Shown one piece after another: positions 32,035 through 42,253 of a DNA stretch of 48,710 nt; within the stretch, counting starts at the first letter, position 1; the number at the start of each line of letters is the position of its first letter. The DNA lies in the NCBI GenBank assembly GCA_017465155.1, contig JAFTWV010000077.1, positions 1-48,710 on the forward strand. Reading direction: 5' to 3'. This DNA is from Clostridia bacterium. Lineage in GTDB: Bacteria; Bacillota; Clostridia; Christensenellales; Aristaeellaceae. The notes under the pieces are model-generated. The model did not search any database and was not told where the DNA came from. It saw nothing but the letters and a program-made list of their open reading frames with translations. Both the position numbers and the translations under genes were made by a program.

Positions 32035-32940
32035 ATGCATACCACGCTTCTCATCATGGCGGCGGGTCTCGGCTCGCGCTTTGGCGGAAACAAGCAGATC
32101 GCGAAGATTGGCCCCAATGACGAGATCCTGCTGGAGTACTCCATCCATGACGCCATCGCGGCAGGCTTCGACAAGGTGGTTTTCGTCATCAAGGAAGCCA
32201 TGGCAGACAGCTTCCGGCAGCTGATTGGCGATAAGATCAGCCGGAAGGTTGAGGTGCATTATGCCTTCCAGGAGTTTGACTCCCTGCCGGAGGGCTTCGT
32301 TCCGCCGCAGGGCCGTGTCAAGCCCTATGGCACCGTACATGCGGTGCTGGCGGCGAAAAACGTCATCCATGAGCCCTTTGCCGTTATCAACGCTGATGAT
32401 TATTACGGCAAGAGCGCCTTTGTGACCATGGCAGAGAGCCTGCGCGGTATGCAGGGGAAGCAGAATGTCGCTTCCATGGTGGCGTATTACCTCAAGAATA
32501 CCGTTTCGGAGAACGGTTATGTGACCCGCGGCGTTTGCCAGAAGGACGAGCAGGGCTTCCTGAAAAAGGTGACGGAGACGTACAAAATCCTGCCCTTTGC
32601 CGATGGCACCATTCGGGATATAAACTTCCGTGAGGAAGGCGATATTCTGGATCACGAAGCGCTGGTGTCGATGAATTTCTGGGGCCTGACGCCCTGGTTC
32701 TTCGAGGCGGCCGGACGGGATTTCGAGGCCTTCCTGTGGGCGCAGAACGGCGATCCGCTGAAGAAGGAATTCGTGCTTCCGATGGAGATCGACAGCCTTA
32801 TGCGCTCAGATGGGCTGCGGGTAGAGGTGCTGTCCACGGATTCGGTGTGGTTCGGCGTGACCTATCAGGCGGATCGCGAGCATGTTGCAGGCGAGCTCCG
32901 CAAGCTGCACGAGGCGGGCCTGTACCCTGAAAAACTGTGA
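32035..32940 (+). CDS. sugar-1-phosphate nucleotidyltransferase
   Basis: A 301-residue protein of the glucose-1-phosphate uridylyl/thymidylyltransferase fold. The pyrophosphorylase signature is MAAGLGSRFGGNKQIAKIG (residues 8-26) and a metal-binding strand INADDYYG follows. The C-terminus lacks the left-handed beta helix of GlmU-like proteins. It would form an NDP-sugar from a sugar phosphate and NTP. It is followed by galE, so a UDP-sugar such as UDP-glucose is likely, but the nucleotide cannot be told. An AAGGAG ribosome site precedes ATG 32035. Confidence 0.85.
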   Translation: MHTTLLIMAAGLGSRFGGNKQIAKIGPNDEILLEYSIHDAIAAGFDKVVFVIKEAMADSFRQLIGDKISRKVEVHYAFQEFDSLPEGFVPPQGRVKPYGTVHAVLAAKNVIHEPFAVINADDYYGKSAFVTMAESLRGMQGKQNVASMVAYYLKNTVSENGYVTRGVCQKDEQGFLKKVTETYKILPFADGTIRDINFREEGDILDHEALVSMNFWGLTPWFFEAAGRDFEAFLWAQNGDPLKKEFVLPMEIDSLMRSDGLRVEVLSTDSVWFGVTYQADREHVAGELRKLHEAGLYPEKL

Positions 32941-33018: not shown

Positions 33019-33107
33019 AGATGATGGCATGAGTCTGGCGCGGTGTCACGCGGACAGGTCCATGTAACCATCAAGGCAAAGACGACGTTTTGAGGAGATG
33101 CTCACCA

Positions 33108-34124
33108 ATGAAGATCCTGCTGACCGGCGGCGCCGGATTCATCGCAACGCACACCTGCGTGGAGCTGTGTGCGGCGGGCCACGATGTGGTCATCGTCGAC
33201 AATTACGTAAACTCCCAGCCTGAGGCGATCCGCCGGGTCGAAGAGATCGTGGGCCATCCGGTGAAGGTCTACGAGGCGGATGTGTGCGACCGCGAGGCGA
33301 TGGACCGCATCTTTGAGGAGAATACGTTTGACGCAGTGGTGCACTTTGCGGGCCTGAAGGCTGTGGGCGAATCTGTGCAGATCCCCCTGCGCTACTACCG
33401 CAACAATCTGGACTCCACCCTCACCCTGTGCGAAACCATGGCGGCCCATGGCTGCAAGCGGCTGGTGTTCTCATCCTCTGCGACGGTATACGGCGTGCCG
33501 GACGAGGTGCCCCTGCGCGAGGATATGTTCTGCAAGGGCTGCACCAACCCTTATGGCTGGACGAAGTATATGATCGAGAAGATCCTCGAGGGCGTGGTGA
33601 ACGCGGATCCCGAGTGGAGTGTTGTGCTGCTGCGCTACTTCAATCCCATCGGCGCGCATGAGTCTGGCCGCATCGGAGAGGATCCCACGGGTATCCCCAA
33701 CAACCTCATGCCCTATATCACCAAGGTCGCGGCCGGACAGCTCAAGCAGCTGACCGTGTTTGGCGACGACTACAATACCCATGACGGCACCGGCGTGCGC
33801 GACTACATCCATGTGGTCGATCTGGCCCGTGGCCATGTGGCGGCCTGCGATTATGCTGCGAAGACCACTGGCTGCGAAATTGTCAATCTGGGCACTGGCG
33901 TGGGCTATTCCGTGCTGGATCTGGTCAATACCTTTATGCGTGTGAATGAGATCGAGCTGCCCTATACCATCGGCCCGCGTCGTCCCGGCGATGTGGACGC
34001 CTGCTTTGCTGACCCGAAGAAGGCCCGCGAGGTTCTGGGCTGGGAGGCCACGAAGAACCTCGATGATATGTGCCGCGACGCCTGGCACTGGCAGAAGAAC
34101 AATCCCAAGGGGTATCACGAGTAA
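33108..34124 (+). CDS. galE: UDP-glucose 4-epimerase
   Basis: A 338-residue short-chain dehydrogenase/reductase of the GalE type. NAD binding is shown by TGGAGFIATH (residues 5-14; GGxGFIG-like). The catalytic residues appear as FSSSATVYG (Ser/Thr) and YGWTKYMIE (Tyr and Lys). The C-terminal RRPGDVDACFADPKKAREVLGW is typical of the UDP-sugar-binding half. It interconverts UDP-glucose and UDP-galactose. GAGGAG lies before ATG 33108. Its neighbour upstream makes an NDP-sugar, so the two may supply surface-sugar synthesis. Confidence 0.95.
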   Translation: MKILLTGGAGFIATHTCVELCAAGHDVVIVDNYVNSQPEAIRRVEEIVGHPVKVYEADVCDREAMDRIFEENTFDAVVHFAGLKAVGESVQIPLRYYRNNLDSTLTLCETMAAHGCKRLVFSSSATVYGVPDEVPLREDMFCKGCTNPYGWTKYMIEKILEGVVNADPEWSVVLLRYFNPIGAHESGRIGEDPTGIPNNLMPYITKVAAGQLKQLTVFGDDYNTHDGTGVRDYIHVVDLARGHVAACDYAAKTTGCEIVNLGTGVGYSVLDLVNTFMRVNEIELPYTIGPRRPGDVDACFADPKKAREVLGWEATKNLDDMCRDAWHWQKNNPKGYHE

Positions 34125-34137
34125 TACCATAAAGATG

Positions 34138-34177
34138 CAGCGCGGAGGCTCACGCAAACGGGCTTCCGCGCTGTTTG
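34138..34177 (+). terminator. weak terminator between galE and the tubulin-like gene
   Basis: CAGCGCGGAGGC (34138-34149) pairs with GCTTCCGCGCTG (34162-34173) with one G-T pair; the tail has only TTTGG, so read-through into the next gene is plausible. Confidence 0.55.
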
Positions 34178-34199
34178 GCGCTGCGGAGGGCGATACAGG

Positions 34200-36101
34200 A
34201 TGAAGCGATATGTACTGCTGGTTGGCGGAACGGGCGCGCGCATGATGGACGCGCTGATTTGCGCTGTCAGCGCGGGCGTGTATCCGGCGGGCACGCTGAA
34301 GGTTCTGCTGGCGGATACGGATCACCGCGGCGTACAGAGCGCAGCGCTGCTCAAAGCGCGGCTGGCGGACTACGACCGCATCCATCAGGCGCTGCTGGTG
34401 CCTGAGGGAGGCTTCCGCACAACGCTGCGCTTCACCTCCTGGCCCGAGCGGCTGCCGGGGGATGCATCGGCGCTGTCTGAATGGACGGCAGGCTCTGAGG
34501 CGGATAAGCTGCTGTGTCAGGCGCTCTTTGACGGGAATGCTGCAGGTCTTGACCTGCATGAGGGCTTCCACGGCAGCCGCATGCTGGGACAGGTGACCTT
34601 TGCGGGGCTGCTGCATGAAGCTGCGCAGAACCCTGACGATCCGCTGAATGCGATGGTGGAGGAGATGGCTCGCGAGGCGGAAAGCGGCGAAGAGGTGCGC
34701 GTAGTGCTGGCGGGCTCTGTCTGCAGCGGTACGGGTGCGGCAGGCATTCCGGCGCTGGCAGCCTTCATTCAGGAGCGTACGCGGGGCAGCGTCCGGATGG
34801 GTGCGGTGCTGCTGGCAGCTTGCACGGATCAGCAGGATGCCGCCAAGGCGAAGGAGGCCATCGCTCAATATGCCAGGGACGGCTTGTGCAGCTCCATCTG
34901 CGTGCTGGGTCTGCCTGCGAGCGCCCGTCCGGCGGCGCCGGCGGAGTATGCGCGGCTGACGGACTGGCTGGCTGCGTACTGCATGGATGTGCTGCTGCAC
35001 CGTCCGGCGTGGCTTGACGGCGTGTTTACCGTGCGTGCGGAGGAAGGCCCGCTGAGCTGGTCCGTCTTCGGCAAGGCGGCAGGCCGGTACCGTGAGGCCT
35101 ATGGGCGGCTGTTCAAGGCGGCAGCGGCGTGGACGTACTGCATCGGCCCGGAGGTGGAGCGGCGGCTGCGCAAGCCCTTCTTCCTGCGGGATATGTTCGG
35201 ATGGTACGCCAGCTTCTACCGCCGCAGGGAGATATCCCGGGAGGAGGAGCTGGAGACCGTTGCCAGCGTGACGCGTCTGATGCGTGTGCTGCTCCTGTGG
35301 CTGGGCGGCATTTGCAAGACGCTGCCCATGGAGATGCGGTGTGCATCGGCCATGCAGCGTGCGCGGCAGGAGGCGACGGAGCATTACGATGCGCTGACTG
35401 AGCTGGCCAGCCACCTGTGCGTCATGGATGATGACGCACAGCGCAGCGAGCTGTACGATGAGACGCTTGTGCACCGTCATTATACGCCCGAAGTCACCGA
35501 GACAGAGCATACCCTGCGCCGTATCGATGCGGTGAAGCAGGAGATTGCCCGCCGCACAGCACAGCAGGTTGCCCTCAACCGTAAGATGGGCGGCACGTCC
35601 GTCATGACGATGCTGGAGAATGCGCTGGAAAAGGCGGACGCAGAGGCAACCGAGCTGCGTGAGTGCTATGCGGAAGCCAACCGCAGGATCGATCATGCAG
35701 AGACCATTGCCTCTGCGGAGGATCAGTATCGCATCACGGATGCACGCACGAAGCTCAAGCGCATGGAACGGCATCAGCTGATGCTGGACAGCCGCGCCGA
35801 GAGGATCCGGGAGGATCTGGCTGCTGCGGTGGCAGAGGAGGTTCGGTTTGACCGGCCTGCCATGGCGCCTTCAGCTGCGGAGAACGGGATGTTCCTGCCG
35901 GGTCTGGCAGAGCGGCTGCTGCAGCGCGAACCCCTGACTCGCGCGGAGGTGGAAGCCATGTGGGGCGATATGATCCAGCCCGGTGAAACAGTGAGCCTGA
36001 AATATGTCATGAAGGCCATCCGCCGTGCCAATGTGCGTGCGACGATGCCCAGCATCAGCCTGCTGCATGCGCTGATGAAGCAATCAATGGAGGAGGTGTG
36101 A
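34200..36101 (+). CDS. tubulin/FtsZ-like GTPase-fold protein
   Basis: A 633-residue protein with the hallmarks of the tubulin/FtsZ superfamily in its first ~210 residues: a glycine-rich start VLLVGGTGARMMDALI (residues 5-20), a strand followed by an NTD-like block LLADTDHRGVQSAALL (36-51), and the tubulin signature loop AGSVCSGTGAAGIPAL (171-186), which corresponds to GGGTGTG of FtsZ. It then has a long helical and coiled-coil C-terminal region (about residues 420-560, rich in Glu, Arg and Ala). This fits the distant tubulin-like families of bacteria (for example Pfam Tubulin_2) rather than FtsZ itself. It is 2 bases upstream of a Hsp70/actin-like gene and was likely translated from the same RNA. 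GTP binding and polymerisation are inferred. Confidence 0.72.
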   Translation: MKRYVLLVGGTGARMMDALICAVSAGVYPAGTLKVLLADTDHRGVQSAALLKARLADYDRIHQALLVPEGGFRTTLRFTSWPERLPGDASALSEWTAGSEADKLLCQALFDGNAAGLDLHEGFHGSRMLGQVTFAGLLHEAAQNPDDPLNAMVEEMAREAESGEEVRVVLAGSVCSGTGAAGIPALAAFIQERTRGSVRMGAVLLAACTDQQDAAKAKEAIAQYARDGLCSSICVLGLPASARPAAPAEYARLTDWLAAYCMDVLLHRPAWLDGVFTVRAEEGPLSWSVFGKAAGRYREAYGRLFKAAAAWTYCIGPEVERRLRKPFFLRDMFGWYASFYRRREISREEELETVASVTRLMRVLLLWLGGICKTLPMEMRCASAMQRARQEATEHYDALTELASHLCVMDDDAQRSELYDETLVHRHYTPEVTETEHTLRRIDAVKQEIARRTAQQVALNRKMGGTSVMTMLENALEKADAEATELRECYAEANRRIDHAETIASAEDQYRITDARTKLKRMERHQLMLDSRAERIREDLAAAVAEEVRFDRPAMAPSAAENGMFLPGLAERLLQREPLTRAEVEAMWGDMIQPGETVSLKYVMKAIRRANVRATMPSISLLHALMKQSMEEV

Positions 36102-36103
36102 GC

Positions 36104-39100
36104 ATGAGGGATCTGGTGTTCCTGCCCGACAGGGAGGGCCGCGATGAACTGACGGCTACGACGGGTTTTGTGCGCCTTGGCGCGGATGCATCGGCGCTGT
36201 CGGCGCTGGCAGATCGTCTCGTGGTGCGCGGTGAAGCGGCTGCTCACGCCGATGAAACGACATGGCGCGGCATGCTGGCGGTGGCGCTGCTGGCGGATGC
36301 ATGGCCGGATGCAGGCGCGGCGGTGTCTGTGCTGACGGTGGATGGCACGACCTCTCTGTTTGCATCATGGGTGCTGGCAGCAAAGCAGCGGGATGCGGTG
36401 CATCTGACGCTGCTGGAGCGCGACGGCCAGCGGAAGCTGCTGGGAATCGCAGATGAGCAGACAGGCCTGATCCTGCCGGCTGCCCCCGGCGATCTGCGCG
36501 AGGTGATGCCTGAGCGCGTCCTCTGGTATGACCGGCAAACGGGAGCGATGACTGACCCGACGCCGTTTTTGTCCGAGGGAGAACGGCAGCTTTTGTGCAG
36601 CCGGATCGTCCGCCTGAACCTGCAAAGCGCGTCTGCGGCTGACTTTGTGCGCGACCTGCAGCAGGCGGGAGCAGAGGAAATCAAGGCTGTCCGCATGCAG
36701 GATGCGGAGGCGCTGGCGCGGCTGTCAGCCCGGATACAGGCGGTGCATGGACTTGCGGAGTTCGAGGCCTTTTCTGTGAAGGATGAGCGCTGTGCTCCCG
36801 GCGGCAATGCGCTGATGAAATGCCTGTGTGGTCAGGAAGCTCCTGATGAAACGGAAGCGGCAGAGAACCGCACATACCTGTGGAATGGCGTTCCCTTTGC
36901 CCGCACAGACAGCCGCATCGGCCTGACGGGCTCCTGGGACGCCGCGCAGGAGGCTGCACTGGAACAGATTGCGCAGGAGACGGCGATGATGGCTGCGCAG
37001 TCTGCCGCGTGGAACAGGCGTACGGCAAAGTCCATTGCTGCGTGGCTGGACACGTCTCAGGCGGCCGGACTGTTGCCGGAAGCCCGCGAATGCATTGACG
37101 AGATCCGGCAGCGAACGAGTGATGCGGGCCGTCAGGTGCAGATGACCGTGACGCTGACATGGCCGTGGGACGCCGGCTCCGGTGCGGTGCGCGCGCTGCT
37201 GCGGGAGACCCTTGGCGATGGCTGGATGCGCGGCGCGGCAAATCCTTTTTCGGATCGACTGACCAAGCTGACGGGCCATCTGCTGGGCGATACAGCCCTG
37301 CAGATCAATTGCGCCTGTGCTGATGGCGTACTGCTGCCACCCCTGTCCAGAGATATGGCTGTCTGCGTGGCTGCGGCTGCGGATGGCGAAGGTCTTGCGC
37401 TGGATGCGATGCGCTTTCAGCCGCAGGAGGACGGGGGAATCACTGCGTCTTTCCTGCTGCGAGGTATGGGCGAGGTGCGGATGGTCCGCAGCTACAGCGT
37501 GGATGAGATTGCGGTGCTGACGCAGGAGGAATCTCCCAGCGTGGCGGTGTGGCCCTGCCTGCCGCTGGAGCGTTGGCATGCGTATCATGTGTTTGCGAAG
37601 CCCGGAACCGTCCGGGTGGAGGCTCTGCGCGGCGGTGAATGGACGGCCTGTCCTGTGCTGGAGGAGCGTTGGAGCTGCCTGCGCACAGAAAGCTATCCTG
37701 CCTGCCTGATCGTGATGCAGGATGATCTGTGCCTTGGCGCGCTGCCCAACGCGCTGCCGTCCTGTCATGTGGAGGCGGTGCGGGATGCGGTTGCAGCCAT
37801 TGATCTTGGTGCGGCAACGACAGTTTCCGTCCTCGCCTTTGACGGCAGTGCTGCGGCTGCAGAGGGACAGGAGCTGACGCGTCTGCTTGTCAGACCTCAG
37901 GAGATGTCTGAGGACGACTTCCTGCTCAGTCTTACACCCCGCAGCGTTATGCCGACAGCGGTGGAACTGACCGGCCCCGGCGACGAGCTGTTTGTTGACG
38001 GCCATGTTCTGTGCGCTGCCAGCTTCGATGCGTTGTCGTGCAAGGAGGCTGCATCCATCAAGTCCTCGCTCAAGTGGCGCGCGGACGCCGCGTCTGTCCG
38101 GGCGCGCAGGCTTCTGATGCATCAAGCGATGCTGGGCACGGCGCTCAATGCCATGCTGGAGGGCGCAAGGAGCATCCTCTGGCGCGTGACCGTTGCGGAT
38201 GAGATGGGCGACGAGGGCCGCCTGGCAACCACCGATATGATGGAGGAGCTGGCTTCGGCTGTCGCGATGGAAACAGGTCTGCCGCTCACCGAGGGACAGC
38301 CTGCTGTCACATGGGCGGAGGAAGCGCCGGCGCTTTGTGCGTATCTGCGCGGCGAGGGCGGCGTTCGCGGCAGCTTTGCCGTGCTGGACATGGGCAGCGG
38401 AAGCACAAAGCTGCATTTGTGGATGCAGGGACAGAGCCGGCCTGCAGCAGGCAGCGTCCTGCTGGACGGCACGCAGACGATGCTCCTTGCAGCCCTCCGG
38501 GATCGTCCTGAAATGCTGGAATATGACTTCGCGGATTGTGCAGATCCTGCGGTGATTGCCGCTGCGCAAACCCTCTCGGAGCAGCTTCAGCGGGCTGGGG
38601 AATCCCTTGCCGAGGCTGACAAGGCGCAGCTGATGCTTCATGCGATGCTGGATGAATACCGTCAGCCGATCACGTCGCACATATCCGCCCGCGCGAGCCT
38701 GCAGCGCCCGACCTTCCTGCAGGCCGTGCTGCTGGAAAATCAGGCGGCGGCGATGTTCATCGCAGGCCTGATGCTGGAGCAGGTGGGCTCGGATTCCATG
38801 CAGAATCATAAGCTGCCGGAGGATATGACCATCTGTCTGACGGGCCGCGGCGCATGGCTGCTGGACAGCCTGATGCCTGCTGCGCGCAATGCCCTGCAGC
38901 AGATCACCCGGCGGGTGATGCGGCTGGACAATCTGGTGCGCTTCGTGACGCTGAAGGCTGCACCGCAGCCGTCGCTGAGCGTTGCGCTGGGCATGGCCGT
39001 CAGCCGCGATACCCAGCGGGCTGTCAACGCGCCGGAAATCCGCACCCGTACATCCTTTTCCCAGCTGATGCGGGATTTGATGCTTCAGCTTGTTGCGCAT

Positions 39101-39304
39101 TTCCCGACCCATACATGGCTGCTGCATGAAGGTCTGTTTGACGCATGGGGGAATCTGACGCCGGCTGGCGAGGATACCATCCGGCGTGTCGCCTCCATGT
39201 GCTATGGCGACGGCGAGGATATCCCTGCGTCCGTGATGGCCTTTGTCAGGCAGCTTCGCGCCACGCCGGTCGCACCGGATCATGCGGCTTTCCCGGAAGC
39301 CTGA
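36104..39304 (+). CDS. large actin/Hsp70-fold ATPase-like protein
   Basis: 1066 residues from ATG 36104 (GGAGGTG ribosome site; a GTG at 36098 would overlap the upstream stop). The C-terminal half shows the three nucleotide-binding motifs of the actin/Hsp70/hexokinase fold in order: phosphate-1 IDLGAATTVSVLAFDG (Asp567), phosphate-2 LDMGSGSTKLHLW (Asp762), and the adenosine motif ICLTGRGAWLL (Thr913-Gly916). The N-terminal ~560 residues are unlike known domains; they contain several predicted beta segments and could be a fused adaptor. The pairing with a tubulin-like GTPase recalls multi-component systems in which cytomotive and Hsp70-like proteins travel together. It lies in an operon with yitT and trmH. 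Confidence 0.7.
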   Translation: MRDLVFLPDREGRDELTATTGFVRLGADASALSALADRLVVRGEAAAHADETTWRGMLAVALLADAWPDAGAAVSVLTVDGTTSLFASWVLAAKQRDAVHLTLLERDGQRKLLGIADEQTGLILPAAPGDLREVMPERVLWYDRQTGAMTDPTPFLSEGERQLLCSRIVRLNLQSASAADFVRDLQQAGAEEIKAVRMQDAEALARLSARIQAVHGLAEFEAFSVKDERCAPGGNALMKCLCGQEAPDETEAAENRTYLWNGVPFARTDSRIGLTGSWDAAQEAALEQIAQETAMMAAQSAAWNRRTAKSIAAWLDTSQAAGLLPEARECIDEIRQRTSDAGRQVQMTVTLTWPWDAGSGAVRALLRETLGDGWMRGAANPFSDRLTKLTGHLLGDTALQINCACADGVLLPPLSRDMAVCVAAAADGEGLALDAMRFQPQEDGGITASFLLRGMGEVRMVRSYSVDEIAVLTQEESPSVAVWPCLPLERWHAYHVFAKPGTVRVEALRGGEWTACPVLEERWSCLRTESYPACLIVMQDDLCLGALPNALPSCHVEAVRDAVAAIDLGAATTVSVLAFDGSAAAAEGQELTRLLVRPQEMSEDDFLLSLTPRSVMPTAVELTGPGDELFVDGHVLCAASFDALSCKEAASIKSSLKWRADAASVRARRLLMHQAMLGTALNAMLEGARSILWRVTVADEMGDEGRLATTDMMEELASAVAMETGLPLTEGQPAVTWAEEAPALCAYLRGEGGVRGSFAVLDMGSGSTKLHLWMQGQSRPAAGSVLLDGTQTMLLAALRDRPEMLEYDFADCADPAVIAAAQTLSEQLQRAGESLAEADKAQLMLHAMLDEYRQPITSHISARASLQRPTFLQAVLLENQAAAMFIAGLMLEQVGSDSMQNHKLPEDMTICLTGRGAWLLDSLMPAARNALQQITRRVMRLDNLVRFVTLKAAPQPSLSVALGMAVSRDTQRAVNAPEIRTRTSFSQLMRDLMLQLVAHFPTHTWLLHEGLFDAWGNLTPAGEDTIRRVASMCYGDGEDIPASVMAFVRQLRATPVAPDHAAFPEA

Positions 39305-39329: not shown

Positions 39330-40187
39330 ATGAAGCAAGCGTCCAAATTGTTCAAGGAATATGCGCTGCTGACCATTGCAACGGTGATGATGGTTCTGGG
39401 TATCTATTTCTTCAAGTTCCCGAATCATTTCTCGACCGGCGGCGTCAGCGGCATTTCGGTGATTCTGGGCCACTATTTTCCCAGCGTGACGCCGGGCGAT
39501 TTTGTGCTGGTGATCAACGTAGCGCTGCTGATTGTGGGCTTTGCGGTATTCGGCAGGGGGTTTGGCGGCAAGACGGCCTATGTCAGCCTGCTGATGAGCG
39601 GCATGACATGGGTGCTGGAGCGTGTGCTGCCCATGACTGCACCGATGACGAATCAGCCGCTGGTGGAGCTGATCTTCGCGGTATCCCTGCCGGCGGTGGG
39701 TTCGGCAATTCTGTTCAACCTTGACGCATCCTCCGGCGGCACGGATATCGTGGCGATGCTGCTGCGGAAGTATACGTCCCTGGATATCGGAAAGGCGCTG
39801 ATGTGCTCGGATCTGGCGATCACGCTGACGGCGTTCGCGGCATTCGGGCCGGAAACGGGGCTGTTTTCCATTCTGGGCCTTGCGATCAAGAGCCTGCTGG
39901 TAGACATGGTGCTGGAGAATATCAACACACACAAGTATTTCCACATCATCACGACGAAGCCGGCAGAGATCGAGGCGTACATCACGCAGCAGCTGCATCG
40001 CGGTGCAACTGAGCTGCATGGCGAGGGCGTCTACACCCATGAGGACAGAACCGTTGTGCTGACGGTGATGAACCGGCACGAGGCAGTGCTGCTGCGCAAG
40101 CAGGTGAAGATGATTGATCCGAAGGCGTTTGTGCTGATCATCAACACGGGCGAGATTGTGGGCAAGGGCTTCCGCGGCACAAATTAA
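39330..40187 (+). CDS. YitT-family membrane protein
   Basis: A 285-residue protein with five or six membrane helices in the first ~175 residues (ATVMMVLGIYFFKFPNHFSTGGVSGISVI is the family's first helix and its conserved FSTGGVSG loop), and a cytoplasmic C-terminal DUF2179 domain (about residues 200-285, HIITTKPAEIEAYITQQL ... MIDPKAFVLIINTGEIVGKGF). The role is unknown; members are widespread in Firmicutes. It starts 25 bases after the actin-like gene and ends 12 bases before trmH, so one transcript is likely. Confidence 0.93.
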   Translation: MKQASKLFKEYALLTIATVMMVLGIYFFKFPNHFSTGGVSGISVILGHYFPSVTPGDFVLVINVALLIVGFAVFGRGFGGKTAYVSLLMSGMTWVLERVLPMTAPMTNQPLVELIFAVSLPAVGSAILFNLDASSGGTDIVAMLLRKYTSLDIGKALMCSDLAITLTAFAAFGPETGLFSILGLAIKSLLVDMVLENINTHKYFHIITTKPAEIEAYITQQLHRGATELHGEGVYTHEDRTVVLTVMNRHEAVLLRKQVKMIDPKAFVLIINTGEIVGKGFRGTN

Positions 40188-40199
40188 GGGGGACCATCA

Positions 40200-40961
40200 A
40201 TGATTGAACACATCACCAGCCTGAAGAATCCGAAGGTGGCTGCGTGGAAGGGCCTCAAGGACCGCAAGGGCAGGAAGGCGACAGGCTGCTTCCTTGTGGA
40301 GGGCCGCAAGATGGTTGCAGAGGTGCTGGACAGCGACTTCACCGTGACGGCTGTCCTGACTGCTGAAGGATACGAGCCTGACTTTGCGCTGCCTGCCGGC
40401 ATGCCCCGCTATGTGCTGCCTGAGCATGTATTTGCAGCAGTTTGCGACACAAAAACGCCGCAGGGCGTTGCAGCCGTCGTGCGGATGAAGGACAGCATGG
40501 TTACAGGCAGGAGGCTTGTTGCGCTGGACGGCGTGCAGGATCCCGGCAATGTGGGCACCATACTGCGCACCGCAGATGCTGCGGGCTTTGACGGCGTGAT
40601 CCTTAGCGAGCAGTGCGCGGACATATTCAGCCCCAAGCTCCTCCGGGCGACAATGGGCAGCATCTTCCGTATGCCTGCCGCCGTTACGCCCGACCTGGCG
40701 GGGACATTGTCGGCGCTGCGGGATGAGCAGGGCTTCAGCGTGATCTCCTCTCAGCTGGACGGAACGCCCTTCTATGAGCGTGCGCCGGTAGGGGAGCGGT
40801 TCGTGCTGGTCATCGGCAGCGAAGGCAACGGCGTGACAGACGCCGTAAAGGCCGCAGCGACCCATCGTGTCAGACTACCCATGCGCGGCGGTGCTGAGAG
40901 CCTCAATGCCGCGGTAGCTGCGGGCATCATGATGTACGAGCTGACAAAGGACATGGAATAA
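40200..40961 (+). CDS. TrmH/SpoU-family RNA 2'-O-methyltransferase
   Basis: A 253-residue SPOUT methyltransferase. An N-terminal ribosomal-L30e-like substrate-binding domain (about residues 1-90, with GCFLVEGRKMVAEVL) precedes the knotted catalytic domain containing DPGNVGTILRTADAAG, VIGSEGNGV and LPMRGGAESLNAAVAAGI. It would methylate ribose in rRNA or tRNA using S-adenosylmethionine. The exact target is not clear (RlmB- or TsnR-like). An AAGGGGGA ribosome site precedes ATG 40200. A long perfect terminator ends the operon. Confidence 0.93.
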   Translation: MIEHITSLKNPKVAAWKGLKDRKGRKATGCFLVEGRKMVAEVLDSDFTVTAVLTAEGYEPDFALPAGMPRYVLPEHVFAAVCDTKTPQGVAAVVRMKDSMVTGRRLVALDGVQDPGNVGTILRTADAAGFDGVILSEQCADIFSPKLLRATMGSIFRMPAAVTPDLAGTLSALRDEQGFSVISSQLDGTPFYERAPVGERFVLVIGSEGNGVTDAVKAAATHRVRLPMRGGAESLNAAVAAGIMMYELTKDME

Positions 40962-41039: not shown

Positions 41040-42191
41040 TCAGCGGGGCAGGGTGACTGAGTAAACCTCGTTGTTGCTCGTTACGATTGCATAACCGTTA
41101 TTGGTCAGGCCAATGAAGGAGCTGACTGTACGGTCGTCCGGCAGGGGCAGGTCATAAGCGTAAAAGCGCTGGCTGTTCACATTGCCGGAATACATGGCAT
41201 TCGGTGCAAAGGCGAAGATGCGGCCGTTCTGGATGGCTGCACCGACGCAGTTGGAGGGCAGCGTGTAGCGGCGGTCAATCGTGTCCGAAATGACGCGCAG
41301 CTCGCTGATGGCCAGCACACTGTTGGTCTGAGAGGTCGGGGCCAGCAGCATGTTCGCGCTGCCGCGCTCGGGAACATAATGGTCAAGATACTTCCAGCCG
41401 TATACCAGCATCGTGTTGTTCACGTCCTGTACGCCCTTATAATCGTAGATGTACATCTGCTGGGTAGTGAAGACGTTCAGCTTGTTGTTGGCATAGAGCA
41501 CCTTGTAGGCCAGATGATCGCTGATGTTGACCACGCCGGTGTTCATCTGGCCGACCTGGAAGGTGTTCATGACCGTGGTGATTTCAGGATTGTAGACGTC
41601 GTAGGCCAGCGTCCACATATATTCGTCGTTTGTGCCGTAGAAGCCGCAGTCCAGCATGAGCATGCCTTCGAAATCTTCATCCTCCAGATCAATCTGTGCA
41701 CCCTGGAGATCCTTGATGTACAGCACGGGAGACAGATCATCACCAGTGACAACCACGGCGTAGCGAGCGCCGATACGGGCGAATTGGATTGGATCCTCCA
41801 TGGACTGGTTGTAGGAGGGACGGCCCTTGGCGTCCACGATGAACAGCTGACTGCCGGCCCAGATGATCAGGTGCGTGTCCGAAACAGAGAAGGATGCGCC
41901 GTCGCCCACGGGATAAGACCATTCTATGCCGCCGCCCGCGTTGACGAAGTGAATCGACGCACCGTCATAATACAGTACGCCGTCCTGAAACACGGTTACA
42001 TCCTGATGGGCGTAACAGGGCAGGGAGAGCGCGGTGATGGTGCTTGTCCGGCCGAAGGAGCTGATCAGGCTGACCGCGCCAATCACCAGCAGCACCAACG
42101 TGATCAGGATCACCCAGTTGCGCACCTGACGGCGGCGGATGCGGCGAAGAACGGCCGGATCCAGAATCGGGGACTTGTTTTTGTTCTGCAT
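41040..42191 (-). CDS. DUF5711-family membrane protein
   Basis: A 383-residue protein with one N-terminal membrane helix (about residues 25-45, VILITLVLLVIGAVSLI, after RRIRRRQVRN) and a large extracytoplasmic part predicted to be beta-rich. Short recurring units, VFQDGVLYYDG, HLIIWAGSQLFIVD and RIFAFAPNAMY, look like blades of a propeller of PQQ/WD type. This is the typical make-up of DUF5711 proteins. The function is unknown. ATG 42191 is chosen after GGAGCT; an earlier ATG (42248) would overlap the promoter. It points toward the convergent trmH gene. Confidence 0.8.
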   Translation of the reverse strand: MQNKNKSPILDPAVLRRIRRRQVRNWVILITLVLLVIGAVSLISSFGRTSTITALSLPCYAHQDVTVFQDGVLYYDGASIHFVNAGGGIEWSYPVGDGASFSVSDTHLIIWAGSQLFIVDAKGRPSYNQSMEDPIQFARIGARYAVVVTGDDLSPVLYIKDLQGAQIDLEDEDFEGMLMLDCGFYGTNDEYMWTLAYDVYNPEITTVMNTFQVGQMNTGVVNISDHLAYKVLYANNKLNVFTTQQMYIYDYKGVQDVNNTMLVYGWKYLDHYVPERGSANMLLAPTSQTNSVLAISELRVISDTIDRRYTLPSNCVGAAIQNGRIFAFAPNAMYSGNVNSQRFYAYDLPLPDDRTVSSFIGLTNNGYAIVTSNNEVYSVTLPR

Positions 42192-42253
42192 ATATTCAAA
42201 GCTCCTGTTCTGTTGACAGAAATAAAGAGTGTGTCCGCATGGATGCACACTCT

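Follow-up and report, generated by a model that had tools for sequence, protein, structure and literature searches.

Proteins of the tubulin and actin types are rarely encoded as one genetic unit, and FtsA-FtsZ is the textbook case. Here we describe a pair of adjacent genes, TUB and ACT, which appear to encode a divergent tubulin/FtsZ-like protein and a large actin/Hsp70-like (ASKHA) protein in a Clostridia bacterium of the Aristaeellaceae (assembly GCA_017465155.1), probably a gut bacterium. The pair lies at positions 34,200 to 39,304 of contig JAFTWV010000077.1, and the whole stretch of 48,710 nucleotides that was analysed is referred to as the window.

The pair was compared with the closest described systems as they are presented in the accessible portions of the respective papers, to which all statements about published work are limited. 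Makarova and Koonin (2010) described operons in which FtsZl1 (Pfam Tubulin_2) is encoded with vWA proteins, which may be secreted or bound to the membrane, and with OmpA proteins, and predicted a membrane role for them (PMC2875224). Like those operons, the loci studied here contain a tubulin-like protein that is divergent, has a T4 loop and ends in a coiled-coil or helical tail; in distant relatives it stands with a putative vWA-like lipoprotein and, in some cases, OmpA. Unlike those operons, they have a large ASKHA protein as the usual partner, and the scanned neighbours include neither a GTPase nor a protein kinase gene. Hsp70/DnaK is absent from the accessible main text of PMC2875224, the passages on "actin" in that text concern other systems, and its additional files list further, uncharacterised partner families. 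The DO-GTPase/GAP1-N2 systems of Kaur et al. (2020) likewise include tubulin-domain, vWA and HSP70 proteins and are membrane-associated, but tubulin and HSP70 are non-overlapping themes of the GAP1-N2 systems and a GTPase is central there (PMC7159879), whereas no GTPase was found among the scanned neighbours of the window pair or of its relatives. In FtsA-FtsZ the actin homolog anchors the tubulin homolog (PMC5832921); as in the present pair, an actin-type and a tubulin-type protein are encoded together, and by analogy joint work at the membrane may be common to both. Unlike in that system, the FtsZ of this genome is encoded by a separate gene on another contig, ACT carries an extra region of ~560 residues, and TUB has no profile match to FtsZ. 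Finally, in two relatives (genomes G585 and G1159) the operon is followed by genes for a MotA-like protein with a long coiled-coil tail and its OmpA-type partner, which recall ZorAB of Zorya (PMC11890865); unlike in Zorya, no effector was recognised, and the next gene in G585, encoding 1133 residues, has no PADLOC match. Among the open-access papers listed in literature searches, none presents a tubulin-like/actin-like pair of this sort in its title or the beginning of its abstract.

The two genes of the window are the following:

34200..36101, + strand: TUB, divergent tubulin/FtsZ-like protein of 633 residues; GTPase-like N-terminal domain with motifs T1 GGTG, T3 DTD and T4 SGTGAAG

36104..39304, + strand: ACT, 1066 residues from the ATG; N-terminal region of ~560 residues, ASKHA ATPase-like domain at ~563-960, short C-terminal tail

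The assignment of TUB is based on ordered motifs and on profile comparisons. The window protein carries GGTGARMMDAL at residues 9-19, ADTDHRGVQSA at 38-48 and CSGTGAAG at 175-182, and its C-terminal half looks helical or coiled-coil. Distant TUB sequences keep the T1 loop GG[TS]G, the D-x-D...N strand and the T4 loop [SA]S[IV]FGGTGA in order. In Pfam, window TUB gave sub-threshold matches to Tubulin_2 (E 0.011; 15.4 bits, cut-off 27) and Tubulin (E 0.12), and two relatives, TUB of a Gloeothece plasmid (40.8 bits) and of G030 (27.6 bits), exceed the Tubulin_2 cut-off of 27 bits. The profile built from the window's genus only matched cyanobacterial TUB with a probability of 99.3% (E 4.8e-20, 369 columns); controls for the genus-only profiles (GalE for both proteins, DnaK for TUB, FtsZ for ACT) all remained at or below 1.0%. 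At the profile level, window TUB is a homologue of the relatives that pass Tubulin_2, and motifs and profiles together suggest a tubulin-type GTPase fold. The best match of TUB to PDB sequences was weak (E 0.049) and resembled chance matches of coiled coils, and the NCBIfam scan returned nothing for either TUB or ACT.

The motifs of window ACT, counted from the ATG at 36104, are DLGAATT from D567, the segment EEAPALC with E740, DMGSGST from D762 and TGRG at 913-916. These segments, which we take to be the phosphate-1, connect, phosphate-2 and adenosine motifs, respectively, stand in ASKHA order and on conserved alignment columns, and distant ACT sequences have D[FL]G[ST], E-x-x-A/S, D[IVL]G[GA]G[ST]xD and GxG. 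Comparison with DnaK profiles gave probabilities of 63% and 75.4% for the family-wide alignments A2 and A7, 93.7% for the distant members and 75.3% for the cyanobacterial ones; in the controls, A2 reached at most 0.3% against six other families, and distant ACT reached 0.2% against each of GalE and FtsZ. Additionally, ACT of the distant genome G939 scores 28.4 bits against Pfam MreB_Mbl, above the cut-off of 27. The genus-only ACT profile matched cyanobacterial ACT at 98.9% (E 3.5e-17), mainly in the ATPase region, and the N-terminal half alone matched the cyanobacterial N-terminal region at 92.0% (E 6.8e-7, a comparison without control). Pfam gave nothing relevant for window ACT, and its N-terminal ~560 residues had no match above cut-off; a known domain found no support in this region, which reached at most 0.7% against the proteins of canonical Tubulin_2 loci. 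The search of PDB sequences with ACT returned one weak GrpE match (E 0.41). A two-lobed ASKHA fold is the structure that the motifs and profiles suggest for ACT. Since the window motifs stand on conserved alignment columns that reach the cyanobacteria, and since the genus-only profiles are significantly similar to the cyanobacterial ones, they are beyond chance. The sequence-only reading of this DNA had recognised both open reading frames, the six motifs and the 2-base spacing, all of which were found where it placed them; its assignment of the first protein to the tubulin/FtsZ type agrees with the ordered T1/T4 loops and the profile matches, that of the second to the actin/Hsp70 type agrees with the conserved columns and the DnaK matches of relatives, and the ~560 residues that it found unfamiliar proved equally unfamiliar to Pfam.

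The two genes are separated by 2 bases if ACT starts at ATG 36104; the alternative GTG 36098 would produce a 4-base overlap with TUB, and of the two starts the ATG agrees better with the alignment of the family. Both are regarded as real genes, because they are present in all 18 genomes of the window's genus (its own included) and are under purifying selection. By the Nei-Gojobori method, eight TUB or ACT pairs, from four genome pairs of which two lack T4, gave ratios of nonsynonymous to synonymous substitution rates (dN/dS) of 0.13-0.43, and two pairs of fused proteins gave 0.19-0.22. Long frames on the - strand opposite TUB/ACT, at 33471-35774 (767 residues) and 36725-39283 (852 residues), were judged spurious.

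The surveys covered 60 genomes of a "relatives" panel and, by profile, 297 of the order, 391 of the class and 398 of the phylum, as well as 320 of the class of G939. TUB was found in 25/60 and ACT in 23/60 genomes of the panel, and the order survey yielded TUB in 13/297 and ACT in 14/297. ACT gave matches in 4/391 genomes of the class, namely the own genome, G403, G585 and, in a short frame, G697, and in 2/398 of the phylum (the own genome and G939); G697 (339-residue frame) and G049 (311-residue frame) were discounted as members. Around the window, at least one of the two genes occurs in 36 genomes, and TUB and ACT are adjacent or fused in 35 of them; in the remaining one, G038, contig ends conceal the arrangement. 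The fusion is found in all five genomes of the sister genus g46 (G114, G132, G212, G285 and G314), where a single frame encodes 1,727-1,789 residues. A contig break runs through the pair in G011, and TUB is split over two open reading frames in G403. ACT of G019 (L056 9443-12628) is distributed over several open reading frames, with three TAG codons inside the matched stretch, which may reflect decay, assembly error or recoding; this genome (broken frames) and G038 (contig end) were left out of the ACT alignments. A pattern search of contigs with TUB alone recovered no relative; the whole-genome searches did find relatives.

Beyond the pair, a wider operon was recognised. Beyond the window's own genus, genes for a lipoprotein and a small membrane protein precede TUB in G029, G030, G031, G038, G057, G084, G206 and G253. 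In G585, from another family of the class, and in G939, from another class, the order is lipoprotein, membrane protein of ~150-170 residues, TUB, ACT and membrane-anchored coiled-coil protein, and G403 has a similar order, with TUB in two open reading frames. The protein search of plasmids with G939 ACT matched five cyanobacterial plasmids over 99% of the length (E 4e-54 to 1e-72), and a rod-shape protein of a Mycoplasmatota record was matched partially, over 24% of the query; phage records searched with distant ACT gave no match. Gene order was inspected for four of the five cyanobacterial plasmids, those of Gloeothece verrucosa PCC 7822, Picosynechococcus PCC 73109 and PCC 7003, and Synechococcus NIES-970, and in all of them the genes for the lipoprotein, the membrane protein, TUB, ACT and the transmembrane/coiled-coil protein stand side by side, the lipoprotein gene of Gloeothece being divergent. 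The Gloeothece TUB and ACT have the accessions WP_013325769.1 and WP_013325770.1. Among the core genes of these four plasmids, the annotation calls no TUB tubulin-like except that of Gloeothece, and it names one coiled-coil protein prefoldin domain-containing; the rest are entered as hypothetical or unknown.

The lipobox cysteine is common to all eight order-level lipoproteins, and their profile matched the three distant lipoproteins at 99.4% (E 1.2e-21) and the cyanobacterial ones at 97.7% (E 1.4e-12). The exact DxSxS motif, whose meaning is taken from the accessible text of PMC2875224, is present in G038 (DGSESM), Gloeothece (DGSGSM) and NIES-970 (DASGSM); most others have a variant, and G029 has none. 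The Pfam scan of the lipoproteins gave no VWA match and the profile comparison with vWA proteins was weak (4.6-26%), so that the domain is called vWA-like, by motif and weak profile match. It is in this sense that a vWA-like lipoprotein stands beside the pair in distant relatives; no vWA gene adjoins the window pair. The distant membrane proteins matched the cyanobacterial ones at 85.6% (E 5.5e-6), and the distant coiled-coil proteins matched theirs at 95.4% (E 2e-8). Moreover, two further genes follow the operon in G585 (L216 13514-15971). One encodes a MotA/ZorA-like protein (ZorA E 2.9e-11; 22.8 bits against Pfam MotA_ExbB, cut-off 22.9) and the other an OmpA/ZorB-like one (ZorB E 4.9e-19; 26.2 bits against OmpA, cut-off 27.2); in G1159 (L261 12463-14915) the corresponding genes exceed both cut-offs (MotA_ExbB 27.1 bits, cut-off 22.9; OmpA 48.4 bits, cut-off 27.2). 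Such stator genes were not found among the scanned neighbours of the window pair, nor in most drawn loci.

Canonical-type Tubulin_2 loci (L121, L122 and L123, in G016 and G025; L122 assigned by clustering) were also encountered. G016 has, elsewhere in the genome, a canonical locus in which vWA stands with a Tubulin_2 match of 162 bits and with a DO-GTPase2 match that, at 26.8 bits, is narrowly below the cut-off of 27, and G025 has a counterpart of it, recognised by clustering and a Tubulin_2 match, beside possessing TUB-ACT. Because these canonical loci stand elsewhere in G016 and G025, the TUB-ACT pair is regarded as a separate system that is able to coexist with them. In G016 a second Tubulin_2 gene adjoins one for a leucine-rich repeat (LRR)/fn3 protein.

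On balance, and with moderate confidence, we read TUB and ACT as the cytoplasmic scaffold pair of an envelope-associated machine that would act in the manner of FtsA-FtsZ. In its complete form, the cell surface would be linked to TUB and ACT inside by three parts: an outer vWA-like lipoprotein, the small membrane protein and the coiled-coil protein with its membrane anchor. TUB would assemble in a GTP-dependent manner; ACT would switch with ATP, and its large N-terminal region would couple TUB to the membrane parts; sensing or binding of the wall or surface would fall to the lipoprotein; and a stator of the MotA/OmpA type would, in some lineages, couple the machine to peptidoglycan and ion flow. 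The reading draws on the adjacency or fusion in 35 genomes, the operon order that recurs in other classes and on cyanobacterial plasmids, the lipobox cysteine and DxSxS motifs of the lipoproteins, the tubulin and ASKHA matches, the stator genes of G585 and G1159, the FtsZ-like gene beside lipoprotein and ACT in G1270, and the agreement of the trees. Built for 37 taxa, the TUB tree and the ACT tree correlate with r 0.89, a value that none of 2,000 permutations equalled and that is uncorrected for shared species history, and have 26 of 34 bipartitions in common; left out of both were G011, whose TUB is cut by a contig end, G019, G038, G403, with TUB in two frames, the G212 fusion protein, and two plasmids, those of PCC 7003 and PCC 8807. 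Intact members may accordingly be expected to use GTP and ATP and to polymerise, and by analogy TUB and ACT may bind each other and assemble at the membrane through the N-terminal region of ACT and the transmembrane proteins. More tentatively, as a possibility that we consider worth stating, the machine may extend across phyla as a joint tubulin/actin cytoskeleton of the inner membrane that is driven, or senses, by way of a vWA-like lipoprotein and sometimes an ion-driven stator bound to peptidoglycan, the fusion of a gut lineage losing its nucleotide sites and becoming a static scaffold.

Several observations weigh against this scaffold reading. The nucleotide loops of the window proteins are partly eroded (CSGTG for FGGTG, DLGAA for DFGT, GSGSTK for GGGTxD). 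The FtsZ comparison of TUB reached a probability of at most 6.2%, and canonical Tubulin_2 gave a modest match (3-29%) that is concentrated in a single loop. Between DnaK and the genus-only ACT profile there was no match (1.1%), so that the ASKHA assignment of the window protein is carried by its motifs and by homology to its relatives. No full-length lipoprotein was found in the 18 genomes of the window's genus, and for this reason a membrane link of the window pair is putative; G010 has a partial lipoprotein match (E 1e-21), other weak matches in the genus lie near the signal-peptide end of the profile, and G019 and G025 likewise yielded no full-length lipoprotein. The order-level membrane proteins matched neither the distant (3.0%) nor the cyanobacterial ones (1.4%), and the order-level coiled-coil proteins gave unclear, weak matches to these groups (11% and 31%); since profile matches are absent or weak, both are equated by position. 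The correlation of the two trees may in part reflect shared species history.

It is important to mention that pairing is incomplete in the class of G939. A strong ACT match, defined there as E below 1e-50, was obtained in 34/320 genomes, and 184/320 match at E 0.001; the other 150 weak matches were discounted, as, where listed, they lie near the phosphate-2 motif in frames of ~340-600 residues, and are taken for MreB/FtsA/DnaK-type proteins. Within a flank of up to 1.5 kb (before ACT, 0.37 kb at L246 and 1.3 kb at L243), TUB was present at 11 of 30 ACT loci and absent at 19. All 19 belong to genus g661, three other loci of which do have TUB, and seven of them, widened to 13.7-20 kb, still showed no TUB in a search that covered the locus only. 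The ACT homologues of the widened loci (L252-L257 and L262) have ~1,240-1,320 residues (1,098 in G1210), and L262 carries a second, weak ACT-like frame of 789 residues (E 3e-4). The complete operon order is present in G1159. In G1270 the lipoprotein gene adjoins ACT without TUB, and beside it lies a gene for an FtsZ-like protein (L263 12561-13727; PF00091 37.8 bits, cut-off 33), possibly a replacement of TUB by another tubulin-family protein. The survey of genomes for conserved pairing that the sequence-only reading had called for thus bore out adjacency in the wider group, and fell short in this one genus of another class, where ACT mostly lacks a nearby TUB.

The erosion of the loops extends beyond the window: T4 is lost and T1 changed in a sub-clade of the genus (G002, G003, G005, G008, G012 and G015), in G025 and in the fused proteins. 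In the eroded lineages, selection may be keeping assembly or binding rather than nucleotide turnover. Since the window lineage yielded no outer lipoprotein and its nucleotide loops are in decay, the pair there is probably slow-switching or non-hydrolysing; it would serve as a scaffold, perhaps tied to surface polysaccharide. The neighbouring genes are the following:

32035..32940, + strand: nucleotidyltransferase upstream of GalE (Pfam NTP_transferase), probably GalU-like by position and family

33090..34124, + strand: GalE, UDP-glucose 4-epimerase (NCBIfam GalE), 75 bases upstream of TUB

39330..40187, + strand: YitT-family membrane protein (Pfam YitT_membrane and DUF2179), after a 25-base gap from ACT

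40200..40961, + strand: SpoU/TrmH-type rRNA methyltransferase (Pfam SpoU_methylase), after a 12-base gap from YitT

GalE stands upstream of the pair in 14/14 drawn loci of the genus and is probably a conserved neighbour outside the machine; a link to surface polysaccharide through these adjoining sugar-nucleotide genes is conceivable, and they may reflect synteny only. The fusion gene of G314 has a similar setting, with a sugar transferase, a nucleotidyltransferase and a GalE-like gene upstream and a SpoU methyltransferase downstream. YitT and TrmH follow the pair in 13/14 drawn loci of the genus, and neither was seen beside the pair in distant loci; they were rejected as machine parts, as the sequence-only reading, which took them for possible passengers, had anticipated. 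At 41040-42248 on the - strand lies a gene for a protein of 402 residues, judged by eye to have one likely membrane helix and without a Pfam match above cut-off; several genomes of the genus keep this protein (cluster c10) close to the locus.

Rather unlikely, in our estimation, is an anti-phage or conflict system in which the lipoprotein or stator senses infection and TUB and ACT form a signalling or killing scaffold. Kaur et al. (2020) placed systems containing tubulin, vWA and HSP70 in conflict biology (PMC7159879), ZorA/ZorB-like genes follow the operon in G585, and the distribution is patchy beyond the window's genus and plasmid-borne in cyanobacteria. However, PADLOC recognised neither protein apart from a weak PbeC match to the C-terminal part of TUB (E 0.015), no effector domain was detected in TUB or ACT, and the presence of the locus in 18/18 genomes of the genus, with the constant GalE upstream, is unlike a defence island. 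The defence role that had been suggested for the window therefore found no PADLOC support beyond that weak match, and the constant chromosomal setting in the genus speaks against it; for the distant relative G585, where ZorAB-like genes adjoin the operon, defence is conceivable.

Quite unlikely is a chaperone pair, in which an Hsp70-like ACT would fold, disassemble or remodel TUB or an envelope client. The profile that ACT matches is indeed DnaK, and the Hsp70 phosphate-1, ITVPAYF and phosphate-2 segments align with it; but ACT ends ~100 residues past the ATPase region and so has no HSP70 substrate-binding domain, none of 23 ACT members gave an HSP70 match in Pfam, and the Pfam matches of relatives are to MreB and FtsA. 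Least credible by far is that the window pair is a decaying, functionless remnant, as its eroded motifs, the missing lipoprotein and the broken ACT of G019 might suggest, given the long frames in 18/18 genomes of the genus (the G011 pair being cut by a contig end) and the dN/dS of 0.13-0.43, motif-eroded clades included.

What is new relative to the FtsZl1/vWA-type envelope systems is the ASKHA partner. If the scaffold reading of TUB and ACT is true, a second independent tubulin/actin-type pair, ranging from cyanobacterial plasmids to Clostridia and accompanied by surface, membrane and sometimes motor parts, would constitute a new bacterial cytoskeletal system. The Tubulin_2 puzzle would gain a concrete partner and an operon that can be tested in culturable cyanobacteria, and the fused, motif-eroded forms would offer a natural series for the loss of nucleotide switches.

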